A stretch of 26,346 nucleotides of DNA from a virus. The DNA is taken from positions 1 to 26,346 of IMG/VR virus record IMGVR_UViG_3300010430_006946, one strand, 5' to 3'. This document shows positions 2,452 to 25,403 of this stretch, one piece after another. The notes beneath the pieces were generated by a model that was not told where the DNA came from, did not search any database, and saw nothing but the letters and a program-made list of their open reading frames with translations. The translations under genes were made by a program, and so were the position numbers. The number at the start of each line of letters is the position of its first letter. Position 1 is the stretch's first letter.

Positions 2452-4132
2452 ACCCGCCATCTCGATCGACACCGCTGGCGAGCAGCCCGTCATCCCGCGG
2501 GAGCCAGAGCAGCTTCCGCCCGAGCTGACACGCGGCGCGGAAATCCCGGACGATCTCGATCCGCTGGCTGACGGTATTCTGATGCAACATCAGAAGGACT
2601 GGCTCGAAGACGACAGTGACCTGAAGCTTGGCGAGAAAGGGCGGCGCACAGGCCTCACTTTTGCCGAAGCGCTTGACGATTCACTTTCTGCCGCCGCTTC
2701 GCGATCAGCGGGCGGCGATAACGTGTTTTATATCGGCGACACGAAGGACAAGGGACGCGAATTCATCGGGTATGTCGCGCACTTTCTGAAGATTGTTGCA
2801 GGCGAACTCGTAGAGATCGAGGAATTCGTCTTCATGGATCAGCGCGAGGATGGCTCCACGCGCGGCATATCGGCCTTCCGTGTGCGCTGCGCCAGCGGCT
2901 TCAGGGTTGAGGCGCTGTCTTCCCGGCCAGAGAACATTCGCGGGTTGCAAGGCATTGTCGTCATCGACGAAGCGGCCTTTCACAAGGACGTAAGAGCCGT
3001 CTTAGACGCGGTGAATGCGCTTCTTATCTGGGGCGGAAAAGTGCGCGTGATTTCTACGCACAACGGCACGCTCAATCCGTTCAACGAGCTGGTGCGTGAG
3101 GCACGCGCTGGCAAAGTGCCATTCTCGGTCCACAGGATCCCGTTCCAGGCAGCTATCGATAACGGCCTTTACAAACGCGTCTGTCTGATGCGCGGGCTGG
3201 AATGGTCGCCTGAAGCCGAAGCCGCATGGGAAGCAAAGATACGCGCCGCATACGGTTCGCGCACGGCCCAGATGGAGCAAGAGCTTGATGCCATCCCCGC
3301 CGATGGTGAAGGCGCGGCGCTAGCCCGTGTTGTCATCGAACAGGTGACAAGCCGCGACGTGCCAGTGATCCGGCTGTCGCTGCCCGACAGTTTCAAGGCC
3401 GCCGAAAAAAGCGCGCGCAAGAAGCAAATCGAGGACTGGTGCCGCACCGAGCTGCGCCCGCACCTTGATCGCCTCGATCCCAAGCGCCGCCACGATTTCG
3501 GATTTGACTTTGGACGCAGCGGCGATGCGTCCGACATGATTATTCAGGAGCTGGGACAAGACCTGATCCGGCGCTGGAAGTTCGTTGTTGAACTGCGCAA
3601 TGTCCCGTTCGAAGCCCAGCGCGATATCATGTTCTACATTGGCGAGGCTTTGCCCCGGCTTGGGCATGGCGCGCTCGATGCCACGGGCAATGGCGCCTAT
3701 CTGGCCGAAGTCGCCGCGCAGAAATGGGGCGACCGGATATCGGAGATCAAGCTGTCCCAGCAATGGTACCGCGAAAACGGCACGCCCTATATCGAGGCGT
3801 TCGGAGACCGCACTGTTGTCATCGCAGCCGATGAAGATGTCGTGCGCGATCATCAGGCGCTGCAATATGTGAAGGGCGTCGTCATGGTGCCTTCGGACAT
3901 GCGCTATAAAGGCGAAGACGGGCTGGATCGCCACGGCGATACCGGCATCGCCGGAATGCTCGCCTGGTTCGCATCGCGGCAAGGCGCGGTGCTTTACGAA
4001 TATGCGCCGGTCACCACGCGCGAAGCCAACGGCTTTGACGATCCCGATCACGATGATTTCAGTCGCGATGGCTTTGGCGGCCTTGGCCGATCGCCGCTGG
4101 GCGCGGGGATAAGGAGCGGCGGCACATGGTGA
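2444..4132 (+). CDS. Terminase large subunit (Mu gp28-like)
   Basis: The protein has 562 residues from ATG 2444, chosen because it overlaps the previous gene by only 8 nt; the frame stays open upstream to 2327 and ATG 2375 or 2414 are possible. It is the ATPase and nuclease of the packaging motor. Visible motifs are a deviant Walker A (EKGRRTG, about 64-70), Walker B (IVVIDEAAF, about 171-179), a coupling motif (STHNG, about 204-208), and the start of the RNase-H-like nuclease domain with acidic residues D351 and D355 (HDFGFDFGRS). Length agrees with Mu gp28-type terminases. The stop overlaps the next start. It acts with the DUF3486 protein and docks on the DUF935 portal. Confidence 0.92.
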   Translation: MSEPAISIDTAGEQPVIPREPEQLPPELTRGAEIPDDLDPLADGILMQHQKDWLEDDSDLKLGEKGRRTGLTFAEALDDSLSAAASRSAGGDNVFYIGDTKDKGREFIGYVAHFLKIVAGELVEIEEFVFMDQREDGSTRGISAFRVRCASGFRVEALSSRPENIRGLQGIVVIDEAAFHKDVRAVLDAVNALLIWGGKVRVISTHNGTLNPFNELVREARAGKVPFSVHRIPFQAAIDNGLYKRVCLMRGLEWSPEAEAAWEAKIRAAYGSRTAQMEQELDAIPADGEGAALARVVIEQVTSRDVPVIRLSLPDSFKAAEKSARKKQIEDWCRTELRPHLDRLDPKRRHDFGFDFGRSGDASDMIIQELGQDLIRRWKFVVELRNVPFEAQRDIMFYIGEALPRLGHGALDATGNGAYLAEVAAQKWGDRISEIKLSQQWYRENGTPYIEAFGDRTVVIAADEDVVRDHQALQYVKGVVMVPSDMRYKGEDGLDRHGDTGIAGMLAWFASRQGAVLYEYAPVTTREANGFDDPDHDDFSRDGFGGLGRSPLGAGIRSGGTW

Positions 4133-6598: not shown

Positions 6599-6808
6599 AT
6601 GAGGTTGCACTGGCTCGCCGCCGCCACCCTTGTTGGTATGGATATAGCCACCGGTCGCCGCGAAGCAGCGGGGCGTGGCAATGACCCGCGTTCAGATGCG
6701 GTGAAACGCTGCTATTTCGGTAGTCCAAACAGACTACCGGGCGGCCCGCCGAAACCTTTGACCAAGAGGCAGCGGCGACGAATGCGCGGCAAAACAAAGA
6801 GGCGCTAA
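6599..6808 (+). CDS. Small basic hypothetical protein
   Basis: The protein has 69 residues. The start at ATG 6599 is supported by an AAAGGA ribosome-binding site at 6587-6592; an in-frame upstream ATG at 6554 lacks this and lies inside the previous frame. The N-terminus is mildly hydrophobic (WLAAATLVGM) and the C-terminus is strongly basic (LTKRQRRRMRGKTKRR), so it probably binds nucleic acid or a negatively charged surface. It ends one base into the ATG of the MuF gene (TAATG at 6806-6810). No family is recognised. Confidence 0.6.
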   Translation: MRLHWLAAATLVGMDIATGRREAAGRGNDPRSDAVKRCYFGSPNRLPGGPPKPLTKRQRRRMRGKTKRR

Positions 6809-8082
6809 TGCCCGATGAACATCCTTCCGCCGTTTCCGGTGCATTTCGAGAGCCGTTCCCGGAGCAGGTCGCGTTCTTTCGTGGCAAGCTGGGCAATCTG
6901 GTGCCGACCGAGCGCTGGGACGATATTGAGCGCGAAGCGCATGACAGCGCGTTCATGGTCGCCGGTGCCACAAAAGCCGATCTGCTGACCGATCTGGGCG
7001 CGGCAACCGACCGGGCTATCACCGAAGGCAAATCGCTCGAAGCGTTCCGCAAGGACTTCAAGGCGATCGTTGGCAAGCACGGCTGGACGGGCTGGACTGG
7101 CGAAGGCAGGCTCAAGGGCGAAGCATGGCGCGTGCGCACGATCTATTCGACCAATGCCTACACCAGCTATGCAGCCGGGCGGCTGGCCCAGCTGCGCGAA
7201 GGCAACTTTCCGTTCTGGCTCTATCGTCACGGCGGCAGTCTGGAACCGCGCCTGCATCATCTGGCATGGGATGGCACCGCACTGCCGCCCGATCATGAAT
7301 TCTGGAAGACGCACTATCCGCCCAGCGACTGGGGCTGCAGCTGCTATGTCGTTGGCGCGCGATCGGCGCGCGGCGTAAAGCGGCTGGGCGGCGATCCCGA
7401 CAAACAGCTGCCAAAGGACTGGAAACGCCGCGATCCAAAAACCGGCGCGCCGGTCGGCATCGGGCGCGGCTGGGATTATGCGCCGGGCAGCACCGTGTCG
7501 AACACGATTTCGGCGCTGGCCGCTAAACCGCGCAACTGGGATTATGCGGTTTCCAAGGCGTTCATGGGGTCGCTTCCGCCTGATCGGGCAGAGGCATTTG
7601 CCGAAGCTTACCGGTCGTTGCCCAGCACACAGGACGATGCCCGGCGCTTTGCAAAGGCGATATACGAAGGCAGACCGCCCGCGGCAGACAAGCCTGTCCG
7701 CACGCTTGGCCCGGCGCGGGCGACCGACGCCGCTGAAGTCAAACGGCTGACCGGCAAGGATGTTGACGGGTTCGATTATCGCGTCGCCCAGGATTCCGTG
7801 CGCCACGTTATCAACGAACACACTGATCCCGAGGTTGAAGCCGCGCGCGATCAGCGCGTGGTCGGCCCGGAGGATTTTGGCCTGCTACCGTCGATCGTTT
7901 CATCGCCTGACGCGATCACGGGGCCGAGCGTTTCCAAAACTGGTGAACTGCTCGTGCATTTCTCCAAATTGATCGGGACGGAGCGAGTGACCGCAACATT
8001 CGCGATCCACGAACGCCGCCGTTCGATGACCCTGAAAACCTATTTCGTGAAAGTGATGAACGGCCCCGCACTTACGCCTTGA
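6808..8082 (+). CDS. MuF minor head protein with C-terminal PBECR-type nuclease toxin domain
   Basis: The protein has 424 residues. Residues about 30-225 form the MuF (Mu gpF, PF04233) head-morphogenesis domain. Its hallmarks are the RTIYSTNAYTSYAAGR helix (110-125) and a block with LHHLAWDGTALPPDHEFW (149-166) leading to PPSDWGCSCYVV (171-182), the 'PP..W.CRC' signature. Residues about 300-424 form an extra domain with VRHVINEH (331-338), EDFGLLPSIVSSPDAI (355-370), LVHFSKLIG (382-390) and a terminal MTLKTYFVKV (407-416). This resembles the phage-Barnase-EndoU-ColicinE5/D-RelE-like (PBECR) nuclease domains found on MuF proteins. MuF proteins are packaged structural components, and polymorphic MuF toxins are known in temperate phages. 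The toxin call is by pattern; RNase activity is an inference. Confidence 0.85.
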   Translation: MPDEHPSAVSGAFREPFPEQVAFFRGKLGNLVPTERWDDIEREAHDSAFMVAGATKADLLTDLGAATDRAITEGKSLEAFRKDFKAIVGKHGWTGWTGEGRLKGEAWRVRTIYSTNAYTSYAAGRLAQLREGNFPFWLYRHGGSLEPRLHHLAWDGTALPPDHEFWKTHYPPSDWGCSCYVVGARSARGVKRLGGDPDKQLPKDWKRRDPKTGAPVGIGRGWDYAPGSTVSNTISALAAKPRNWDYAVSKAFMGSLPPDRAEAFAEAYRSLPSTQDDARRFAKAIYEGRPPAADKPVRTLGPARATDAAEVKRLTGKDVDGFDYRVAQDSVRHVINEHTDPEVEAARDQRVVGPEDFGLLPSIVSSPDAITGPSVSKTGELLVHFSKLIGTERVTATFAIHERRRSMTLKTYFVKVMNGPALTP

Positions 8083-23495: not shown

Positions 23496-23654
23496 ATGAA
23501 GGAGTCGTTTAGATGCGGCGGTTGTGCCGCGCTGCTGTTTAAGGCAGAAAGGAACGCACTGGCCGGGCTGGTCGAGATCAAGTGTCGTCGATGCCGCCAG
23601 ATCAACCAATTGAGGCCTTTGAGCCCTTCTCCGAGCGCCAAGAGAGACGCCTGA
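23496..23654 (+). CDS. com: Com-like zinc-finger regulator
   Basis: The protein has 52 residues. It matches Mu Com in size and layout: M-K at the start, FRCGGCAALLFKAE (5-18) with the first Cys pair (C7, C10), then VEIKCRRCRQIN (26-37) with the second pair (C30, C33), giving one zinc finger, and a basic tail. In Mu, Com is a zinc-finger RNA-binding protein that exposes the mom start for translation. Here the gene directly downstream is a DNA methyltransferase instead of mom, so Com may control that gene. The ATG 23496 is preferred, though its ribosome-binding site is weak. Confidence 0.85.
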   Translation: MKESFRCGGCAALLFKAERNALAGLVEIKCRRCRQINQLRPLSPSPSAKRDA

Positions 23655-24628
23655 GGAGACAGTCCTTGTGGCTTTATATTCCAACGTTGATGGCGGCGAA
23701 TTGCGCGGCCTCTCACTATGCTCCGGATATGGAGGACTCGAACTCGGCATCAGTATCGCCGAGCCCGGATATCGAACTGTTTGTTTCGTCGAGCGGGAAG
23801 CCCATGCGGCGGCGGCTCTCGTGGCCCGGATGGAAGACAAAGCGCTGGAGCAAGCGCCTGTCTGGGACGATCTTAAATCCTTCGACGGCCACGCGTGGCG
23901 TGACCGCGTTCATATCCTCACTGCCGGTTATCCGTGCCAGCCATTCAGCATGGCAGGGAAGCGATGCGGGAAAAACGATCCCCGACACCTTTGGCCTGAA
24001 GTCGAGCGCATCATCGGTGAAGTGCGGCCAACTGCCGTCTTCGCAGAGAATGTCGAAGGGCACATCGATCTGGGATTTGCCGAAGTCGCAGCGAGCCTTC
24101 AGAAGCTGGGCTATTACACAAAAGCGGGACTGTTCACGGCGCGAGAAGTGGGCGCAAGCCACCGGCGTCGCCGCCTCTTCCTCCTGGCCTACGCCGACGG
24201 CGAGCGATGCGGGCTATATGCCGGATCTGATACTGGAGGGCGGTTCGATCACGATCAAGTCACCGTTCTACACGGCGGAGACGAGCTCGGGCCAGTTCTC
24301 GCTGACAAATGCAGCGCGGGCATGGTCGAGCATGTGGATGGCGATGAGGGCGCTTGGTTGGCGTCCGATCGCGAAGAGCTGGCCGAATGCGAAGCAATCT
24401 TCGCACCAGGTCCGGGTGAGCTTCAGGACTGGCACCGGCTCTTACATCGGCGGCCTGATCTCCAACCCGCGATTTTTCGAACACGTGATGGGCTGGCCGA
24501 TCGGGTGGAGCGCACCAGAGGAGCCGGTAACGGAGTATGCAGCCTGGCTGCGGCGTTCGCGTATCGAACTCTCAAGGCTGACTTCGTTGGCGATGCTGCG
24601 GGATCGGGAGTTAACCAATGACGCTTGA
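23582..24628 (+). CDS. Overlapping frame: WPTP...MGWPIGW-type phage protein (candidate overprinted gene)
   Basis: This frame, +1 relative to the C5-methyltransferase, is open for up to 348 residues across the entire methyltransferase gene. The start is uncertain: GTG 23582, ATG 23591, ATG 23690 and ATG 23804 are possible. Residues 199-210 (SSSWPTPTASDA) and 288-310 (containing SNPRFFEHVMGWPIGWS), plus SWPGWKTKRWSKRLSGT (80-96), match a family of phage proteins of unknown function encoded beside or on top of C5-methyltransferase genes. Codon use from about 24184 to 24560 looks normal for this genome in this frame (many G/C third bases), while the methyltransferase frame also keeps its motifs. 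It ends 7 nt beyond the methyltransferase stop, inside the adenine methyltransferase start. Expression is unproven. Confidence 0.55.
   Translation: MSSMPPDQPIEAFEPFSERQERRLRRQSLWLYIPTLMAANCAASHYAPDMEDSNSASVSPSPDIELFVSSSGKPMRRRLSWPGWKTKRWSKRLSGTILNPSTATRGVTAFISSLPVIRASHSAWQGSDAGKTIPDTFGLKSSASSVKCGQLPSSQRMSKGTSIWDLPKSQRAFRSWAITQKRDCSRREKWAQATGVAASSSWPTPTASDAGYMPDLILEGGSITIKSPFYTAETSSGQFSLTNAARAWSSMWMAMRALGWRPIAKSWPNAKQSSHQVRVSFRTGTGSYIGGLISNPRFFEHVMGWPIGWSAPEEPVTEYAAWLRRSRIELSRLTSLAMLRDRELTNDA
23668..24621 (+). CDS. DNA (cytosine-5) methyltransferase
   Basis: The protein has 317 residues from GTG 23668, with GAGGAG at 23653-23658. C5-methyltransferase motifs are in order: motif I GLSLCSGYGGLELG (14-27), motif IV GYPCQPFSMAG (87-97) with catalytic C90, motif VI ENVEG (127-131), motif VIII GASHRRRRLFLLAYAD (162-177) and a C-terminal motif IX/X region DGLADRVERTRGAGNGVCSLAAAFAY (274-299). 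It transfers a methyl group from SAM to cytosine C5. The target sequence cannot be read off. No restriction partner is near, so it is an orphan phage enzyme, probably for protection against host restriction. Its whole length is overlapped by a second protein-like frame. The stop is ATGA-coupled to the adenine methyltransferase. Confidence 0.92.
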   Translation: MALYSNVDGGELRGLSLCSGYGGLELGISIAEPGYRTVCFVEREAHAAAALVARMEDKALEQAPVWDDLKSFDGHAWRDRVHILTAGYPCQPFSMAGKRCGKNDPRHLWPEVERIIGEVRPTAVFAENVEGHIDLGFAEVAASLQKLGYYTKAGLFTAREVGASHRRRRLFLLAYADGERCGLYAGSDTGGRFDHDQVTVLHGGDELGPVLADKCSAGMVEHVDGDEGAWLASDREELAECEAIFAPGPGELQDWHRLLHRRPDLQPAIFRTRDGLADRVERTRGAGNGVCSLAAAFAYRTLKADFVGDAAGSGVNQ

Positions 24629-25403
24629 GCCTGTCCAGCCGGTTAGGCCGGTCGCGCCATACCTTGGCGGCAAGCGCGCGCTCGCCAAGCGTCTTGTCCC
24701 GATGATCGATGATATTCCGCACGATCTCTATGCGGAGCCATTCGTTGGCATGGGCGGCGTCTTCTTTCGCCGGACGCGGCGGCCGAGGAAGGAAGTGATC
24801 AACGATATCTCGACCGATGTCGTGAATCTCTTCCGGTTGTTGCAACGCCATTATCAGCAGCTGCTCGACGTGCTGAAGTGGCAGGTCTGCAGCCGGGCTG
24901 AGTTTGAGCGTCTGGTCTCGCTCGATCCCGACAGACTGACCGATCTGGAGCGGGCCGCCCGGTTCCTCTATCTGCAGCGCGCGGGCTTTGGTGGCATGGC
25001 CCGCAATTATGGTGTGGCCAGAACCAACCCGGCGCGCTTCGATCTGACAAAGCTGGTGCCGATGCTTGAGGATGTTCATCAGCGCCTTTGCGGCGTCGAC
25101 ATCGAGCGGCTGCCCTATGCTGAGCTGATTGGCCGCTATGACACGCCTGGCACGCTGTTCTATCTCGACCCGCCATACTTCGGTTGTGAAGATGACTATG
25201 GCCCAGGCATCTTCTCAACGGCTGATTTCGAGGTTCTGAGAGGCCTCTTAGAAGGGCTCAAGGGCCGCTTCATCCTGTCGCTGAACGACAGACCTGAAGT
25301 CCGGGAGTTGTTCGCCGGGTTCAAGATCGAGGAGGCCAAGCTCAACTATCGAGTCAGCGGAAAGGTGACACCAGCCCGCGAGGTGATTATCACAGGGCCA
25401 TGA
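24618..25403 (+). CDS. DNA adenine methyltransferase, D12 class (Dam-like)
   Basis: The protein has 261 residues, a typical D12-class N6-adenine methyltransferase length. Motif X-like PYLGGK (14-19) is followed by motif I EPFVGMGG (40-47) for SAM binding, and by motif IV DPPY (184-187) within YLDPPYFG, the catalytic motif. The helical insert between them (about 70-165) is the usual target-recognition part. The enzyme methylates adenine N6 in duplex DNA; GATC is a common target of the class but is not proven here. It is translationally coupled to the preceding C5 enzyme (ATGA) and to the following gene (ATGA), so both base modifications are produced from one mRNA. Confidence 0.92.
   Translation: MTLEPVQPVRPVAPYLGGKRALAKRLVPMIDDIPHDLYAEPFVGMGGVFFRRTRRPRKEVINDISTDVVNLFRLLQRHYQQLLDVLKWQVCSRAEFERLVSLDPDRLTDLERAARFLYLQRAGFGGMARNYGVARTNPARFDLTKLVPMLEDVHQRLCGVDIERLPYAELIGRYDTPGTLFYLDPPYFGCEDDYGPGIFSTADFEVLRGLLEGLKGRFILSLNDRPEVRELFAGFKIEEAKLNYRVSGKVTPAREVIITGP

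Follow-up and report, generated by a model that had tools for sequence, protein, structure and literature searches.

In the methyltransferase M.EcoHK31I (YGGCCR), the frame of the beta polypeptide (176 aa) lies inside that of the alpha polypeptide in another reading frame, and both proteins are needed. The large subunit carries motifs I-VIII and X as well as the predicted target-recognition domain, and motif IX is located on the smaller polypeptide (PMC3404938); the enzyme is termed naturally split in a further account (PMC3439449). M.AquI consists of two polypeptides that form one C5 enzyme, the division lying within the variable region after motif VIII (PMC3404938). An out-of-frame gene of another kind inside a phage methylase gene, the HNH homing-endonuclease insertion called the ShiLan domain, has also been described (PMC11855218). 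The split C5 enzyme is already known as a principle. We found no account in the open-access literature of two fully co-extensive genes whose starts adjoin each other in different frames, a weak negative since most subscription journals are outside this coverage.

Here, we analyzed a locus in a virus record of 26,346 bases (the window, i.e. the whole stretch of DNA under study), in which a C5-cytosine DNA methyltransferase frame (A) and a +1 frame (B) lie over each other (Table 1). Dual coding of the A/B region is near certain, and judging from sequence comparison it is highly probable that the two frames, each coding over the full gene, specify the two subunits of one C5-cytosine DNA methyltransferase. 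By analogy in motif layout, the A/B pair would work like M.EcoHK31I, the closest known enzyme, without being classed as a member of that type. Unlike the beta polypeptide, B has 320 aa and is co-extensive with A; furthermore, M.EcoHK31I belongs to a restriction-modification system, whereas the present pair belongs to a phage and is located beside com and an adenine methyltransferase. As described for M.EcoHK31I, A carries motifs I-VIII and X, and motif IX is found, by pattern and profile, on a second polypeptide. In contrast, the conserved WPTP region, presumably the recognition domain, is located in B, while the predicted recognition domain of M.EcoHK31I is assigned to the large subunit (PMC3404938). 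The pair also differs from M.AquI, in that motif X of the window is in A and not beside motif IX in the second subunit, and in that the overlap amounts to about 950 nt.

Organization of the A/B locus

Both frames are open as the first-pass annotation of this DNA had claimed, the +1 frame over 23582-24628. It is open from upstream of GTG 23582 to its stop and would encode 348 aa if this GTG were used. The conserved blocks reported there were likewise found in place, namely motifs I, IV, VI, VIII and X of A in one chain, and LSWPGWKTKRW, SSSWPTPTASDAG, and NPRFFEHVMGWPIGW in B.

Table 1 Features of the A/B locus and its neighbours (positions in the window).
Feature	Position	Strand	Basis
com-like zinc-ribbon gene, 52 aa	23496..23654	+	Pfam PF10122 Zn_ribbon_Com, E 4.1e-9, 36.2 bits vs cut-off 22.9
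Presumed Shine-Dalgarno GAGGAGA, common to A and B	23653..23659	+	sequence
TTG, probable B start (TTGTGG)	23666..23668	+	aligned starts and MWLY N-terminus
B, +1-frame protein, 320 aa from TTG	23666..24628	+	phrog_1008 E 6.4e-12; score above all 100 permutations
A, C5-cytosine DNA methyltransferase, 317 aa, GTG start	23668..24621	+	PF00145 (DNA_methylase) E 2.4e-30; phrog_363 E 8.8e-53
A motif I (LSLCSGYGGLELG)	23710..23748	+	columns conserved in 18 homologues
B conserved N-terminal block LSWPGWKTKRW	23816..23848	+	alignment
A motif IV, catalytic PCQ	23926..23964	+	PC[QT] in A of 139/139 loci
A motif VI (ENV)	24040..24063	+	EN[VS] in A of 137/139 loci
A motif VIII region (ASHRRRRLFLLA)	24154..24189	+	sequence
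B SSSWPTPTASDAG, start of presumed target-recognition region	24176..24214	+	alignment
B NPRFFEHVMGWPIGW, presumed motif IX	24464..24508	+	profile match and pattern
A motif X (GAGNGVCSLAAAFAYRTL)	24520..24573	+	GNG/GNA-type motif in A of 128/139 loci
D12-class adenine methyltransferase, 3' of A/B	24618..25403	+	PF02086 E 5.7e-23

By profile, A matches HhaI with an E value of 1e-18, covering HhaI 73-181. Its fold model is fair over the first 178 residues alone, and the fold match to HaeIII/HhaI extends over no more than about 174 of 327 residues. The match of B to phrog_1008 is confined to two parts, residues 109-210 and a stretch at the motif IX region; phrog_27243 (E 2e-5) and two short PHROG families were matched as well. 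The predicted structure model of B is unusable (pLDDT 38).

On its 5' side, A/B adjoins the com-like gene, the stop of which overlaps the presumed ribosome-binding site. A com-like pattern was found 5' of A/B in 57 of the 137 loci with enough upstream DNA. Com of phage Mu promotes translation of mom, and by analogy com may regulate translation of the A/B pair. On the 3' side, the start of the adenine methyltransferase is overlapped by B over 11 nt (24618-24628) and by A over 4 nt. The +1 frame had been described as overlapping both neighbours; this holds for the adenine methyltransferase start but, if B starts at TTG 23666, not for com (23496-23654). In four loci (L010, L013, L017, and L019; around 2420-2520), the com-like ORF continues past the A/B starts in the third frame, which gives a short triple-frame stretch. 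Elsewhere in the window (6808-8082), a Mu protein F-like gene shows a C-terminal, sub-threshold match of the PBECR3 nuclease type (28.6 bits versus a cut-off of 30).

Conservation of the +1 frame compared with permuted genes

Because +1 stops are rare in GC-rich genes, we used a shuffle control, in which synonymous codons were permuted inside each A gene so that the A protein and its codon use were kept exactly. The control was applied to 139 distinct loci, obtained by reducing a set of 190 loci by identical core DNA. Within the aligned part of the gene, none of 22 homologous loci, of which L018 and L020 are incomplete, contains a +1 stop; in the +2 frame, by contrast, several stops occur in every locus except L020, a 270-base fragment. 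The +1 frame is stop-free in 123 of the 139 loci compared to 19.8 expected under permutation, and the total number of +1 stops is 19 compared to 355.6. The first-pass annotation had named frequent +1 stops in homologues with intact methyltransferases as the outcome that would contradict dual coding; such stops are rare, and dual coding is not refuted. Single-chain enzymes taken as negative controls had 10 (Shauna1), 5 (Papez), and 8 (B22) +1 stops, with shuffle means of 10.3, 6.5, and 6.6, respectively.

The amino acid sequence of the +1 frame is conserved as well. Its score against a B profile exceeded that of all 100 permutations in 138 of the 139 loci, L002 being the miss, and in 122 of 123 loci when the rows of the profile itself were left out. 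With a broader profile and a more distant set, 41 of 45 loci outside the training rows scored above all 200 permutations; the misses were L222, L237, and the partial loci L254 and L255. Together with the synonymous-site constraint described below, these permutation tests bear out the proposal that two conserved proteins overlap over about 950 nt. That B is a shadow, i.e. that the +1 frame is open only through GC-rich codon use and the conservation of A with no protein made, would suit GC-rich loci such as L081 and L189, which stay open in more than 90 of 100 shuffles. We regard it as extremely improbable in view of the excess of open loci, which extends to those below 56% GC (17 of 25 open, 1.1 expected), the near-uniform rank of the B score above the permutations, and the constraint on four-fold sites in all 55 pairs. 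The permutation tests led us to reject the possibility that the frame is open by chance as a result of GC-rich codon use.

Constraint at synonymous sites

A comparison of synonymous sites, which had been proposed along with the dual-coding reading, revealed constraint. Divergence at four-fold sites is 0.31 in A/B and 0.49 in the downstream adenine methyltransferase of the same 11 loci, and it is lower in A/B in all 55 pairs; this comparison was confined to the 11 loci in which the match to the adenine methyltransferase is nearly full-length (the match of L011 is partial, and L010, L012, L013, L027, and L028 have none). The constraint varies along the gene. It is weak or absent in the 40-column windows 1-40 and 81-120 (four-fold divergence of 0.44 and 0.49), whereas values of 0.28 were obtained for columns 41-80 and 121-160 and of 0.21-0.25 over columns 161-320. 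The stretch of A between motifs VIII and X is its least conserved part (identity of 0.33 in one 40-column window, columns 201-240), and B is conserved there. This least-conserved segment of A has the lowest four-fold divergence (0.21), so that the two frames share the burden segment by segment. Third codon positions in A columns 181-240 change less (0.31-0.44) than first positions (0.46-0.52) in a comparison that omits L018, which has an 87-nt deletion and lies at a contig end. The deletion in this locus (2501-3250) is in phase and removes part of A near motif VIII together with the matching part of B; both frames stay open.

Salmonella phage S9-5 and E. coli PT62 form a pair that diverged recently, with 40 differences between them. 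Among them, 26 are A third-position changes that are silent in A and alter B, and 7 are the reverse, indicating that A is more constrained than B in this pair. Structure in the RNA or DNA could by itself reduce synonymous divergence, but the signal follows the reading frame, with its lack of stops, its conserved amino-acid profile, and its start codon, so that we consider the probability that structure and not a second protein underlies the constraint practically negligible.

Start codons of A and B

The B start at TTG 23666 lies 2 nt 5' of the A start at GTG 23668, so that the two codons overlap by one base. TTG 23666 is the more likely start of B compared to GTG 23582, a preference based on the alignment of start codons and the MWLY N-terminus in 22 close loci and on 124 of 125 loci of the 139-locus set. 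In the 22 close loci, a possible B start precedes A by 2 nt (by 5 nt in L027 and L028); it is TTG in 19, ATG in 2, and GTG in 1 of them, in the contexts TGTGG or ATGACATGG/ATGACGTGG. The count in the larger set uses 125 loci, the other 14 having no match to the B N-terminus. In 124 of these, L104 being the exception, a start codon is present at or near the aligned position (58 ATG, 37 TTG, and 29 GTG). The nearest A-frame start lies at +2 relative to the B start in 76 loci, at -4 in 41, at +5 in 6, and at -7 in 1, and a Shine-Dalgarno-like 4-mer lies no more than 18 nt from the B start in 86 of these 124.

The N-terminus M(x)WL(Y/F) recurs in phages of Acinetobacter, Salmonella, Pseudomonas, Synechococcus, and Microcystis. 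In L004, L197, L198, and L265, a stop directly precedes it, which implies that B starts there or later. The conserved own start and N-terminus of B favour separate initiation over programmed frameshifting, in which the N-terminus of A would be fused to the C-terminus of B. Frameshifting from the methyltransferase had been raised in the first-pass annotation, and it has some appeal, since single-chain relatives join A and B sequence and Gordonia phage JKSyngboy mixes frames. Nevertheless, B is constrained over most of its length and keeps its own start near that of A in 124 of 125 loci, on which ground we rejected frameshifting; we judge it very unlikely.

In the arrangement that we favour, the two-subunit enzyme, frame A would encode the catalytic subunit with motifs I-VIII and X, and the +1 frame would encode B with motif IX (NPRFFEHVMGWPIGW) and the presumed recognition region, which extends from WPTPTASD to about residue 265. 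Ribosomes at one Shine-Dalgarno site would start at either TTG (B) or GTG (A), a single transcript would thereby yield both halves, and these would assemble into one enzyme. We infer that a B protein is made which binds A and recognises DNA, that methylation depends on it, and that the A/B enzyme marks phage DNA. With two start codons so close to each other, the choice between out-of-frame starts at a single ribosome site can be tested.

Motif IX and fused or split relatives of B

The motif IX pattern occurs in A in none of the 139 loci and in B in 125 of them; neither frame has it in the other 14. As A lacks motif IX, we do not claim full-length single-chain PF00145 membership for it. At motif IX, the B profile matches the corresponding region of single-chain and split actinophage enzymes with a probability of 94.8% and an E value of 5.3e-8 over only 20 columns. 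Mycobacteriophage Shauna1 gp67, a single chain of 455 aa, matches both phrog_363 (E 3.1e-77) and phrog_1008 (E 5.8e-67); its LPTP motifs are followed by EWMMGWPAGW and then by motif X. Papez gp46 is likewise a single chain that matches both families, and it has no LPTP motif. Split pairs with short overlaps are represented by Eagle gp78/gp77 (23 nt), ToneTone gp88/gp87 (68 nt), and Dylan gp7/gp6 (209 nt). Their first protein carries motifs I-VIII and the second the recognition region with motifs IX and X, as in M.AquI. In PHROG, the families matched by A (363) and by B (1008) are listed separately, each under the label DNA methyltransferase, with no mention of the overlap.

The single-chain and split relatives support the earlier suggestion that the second product is a target-specificity partner, and together with the motif distribution they allow the strong inference, by sequence comparison, that B forms a split C5 methyltransferase with A. 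The WPTP region of B is presumed to be the recognition domain on account of its position. Alternatively, B could be an overprinted protein that is indeed translated but has a job of its own, for instance in anti-restriction or regulation, and is no subunit of the methyltransferase. In line with this, B has no match in Pfam, a PDB sequence search with the B profile and Eagle gp77 returned nothing at E values up to 10, and on inspection the N-terminal half of B has no visible counterpart in single-chain enzymes. The presence of motif IX in B and its absence from A, the fusion of the A and B families in Shauna1 and Papez, and the finding of B only with A in 190 distinct loci all argue against a separate job, which we hold to be unlikely. 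An HNH or intein-like insertion of the ShiLan type, which resembles the present case as an out-of-frame gene inside a phage methylase gene (PMC11855218), was rejected: B is conserved along all of A and has no HNH match.

Six loci hand-picked from 40 listed rows, a non-random choice, comprised five with B in the +1 frame and one with motif IX in A. The latter, from Gordonia phage JKSyngboy (L264, 1201-2265), has the WPTP-like PTPQASD in the +1 frame and motifs IX and X in frame A; this mixed form is possibly a re-fusion or an intermediate.

Distribution and annotation

Among 398 genomes sampled from the phylum of Sphingopyxis, 27 gave matches to phrog_1008, and matches to the B profile were found in 12 of 296 genomes of the corresponding order. 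At the best loci of these 27 genomes, an A-type methyltransferase overlaps in the matching frame in 25 (in pieces in L252), while L255 has A only and L256 neither. With the B protein of Acinetobacter phage ABMM1 as query, 181 phage records were retrieved. A search of a plasmid collection yielded 2 records, and tblastn of B from the close homologue L027 gave no match among phages.

We compiled 190 distinct loci, dropping those with less than 150 aa of A or a duplicate core. The best B match is in the +1 frame and overlaps A in 189 of them and is in the same ORF in one. Some of these matches are weak, and the claim is therefore carried by the permutation tests and not by this count. A WPTP protein encoded without overlap, the search for which had been suggested, did not turn up: the 190 loci give only the +1 partner or the one fusion, and the annotated split pairs overlap by at least 23 nt. 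By pattern, 148 loci were classified as fully dual, 13 as embedded, 11 as split or truncated, and 4 as single-chain, with 14 unclassified; several of the 'split' labels reflect truncated contigs (L018, L079, L088, and L184) or a degenerate motif X (L198).

In the annotated relatives that we examined, mostly one of the two proteins is recorded. A alone is annotated in the records of E. coli PT62, Acinetobacter phage ABMM1, and Salmonella phage S9-5, and B alone, as 'cytosine-specific methyltransferase', in Acidovorax phage Alfacinha1. Both are annotated in Paenibacillus phages Diva, Bloom, and Redbud; B of Diva, labelled 'g49 internal gene', matches phrog_1008 with an E value of 1e-73. Gene callers with a rule against long same-strand overlaps miss half of the enzyme. 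Should B be the specificity subunit, many C5 methyltransferases of phages and prophages that are on record as complete would show no activity if cloned without their partner, nor could their targets be deduced from A by itself.

Origin of the overlapping arrangement

We built a tree from motifs I-VIII of A for 58 of the 190 rows, omitting the 14 unclassified loci, 4 truncated loci, and D rows above 62% identity. The fully dual type lies for the most part in a single cluster of 29 rows (support 93/98). The actinophage forms with a single chain or a short overlap make up a second cluster (8 rows; 99/94), at the base of which stands one embedded relative. The class labels require 10 changes on the tree, fewer than in all 200 shuffles. 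Embedded forms occur on both sides of the midpoint of this unrooted tree, which suggests that the +1 partner is old, and the single chains of actinophages may have arisen secondarily by fusion. An origin through two frameshifts, with one indel after motif VIII and another between motifs IX and X, would fit the division of the motifs exactly.

Tentatively, the A/B family may be counted among the longest and most widespread conserved dual-coding pairs known: two enzyme halves overwritten end to end (about 0.9-1.2 kb) and made together from one ribosome site with two starts a few bases apart, in which the N-terminal half of B would be overprinted on the catalytic domain and the recognition segment with motif IX would have moved to the +1 frame through two indels that flank it and compensate each other. 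The series of single chain, short overlap, embedded, and fully overlapping forms provides a natural laboratory for the origin of dual coding.

A prophage copy in E. coli PCP07014 (L205, 1501-2262), in which the annotation marks the methyltransferase as a pseudogene containing an internal stop, was excluded from the evidence for this reason. Several copies of the B family were found in single bacterial genomes (L240 and L258 in G470; L230 and L257 in G659), which presumably hold several prophages.
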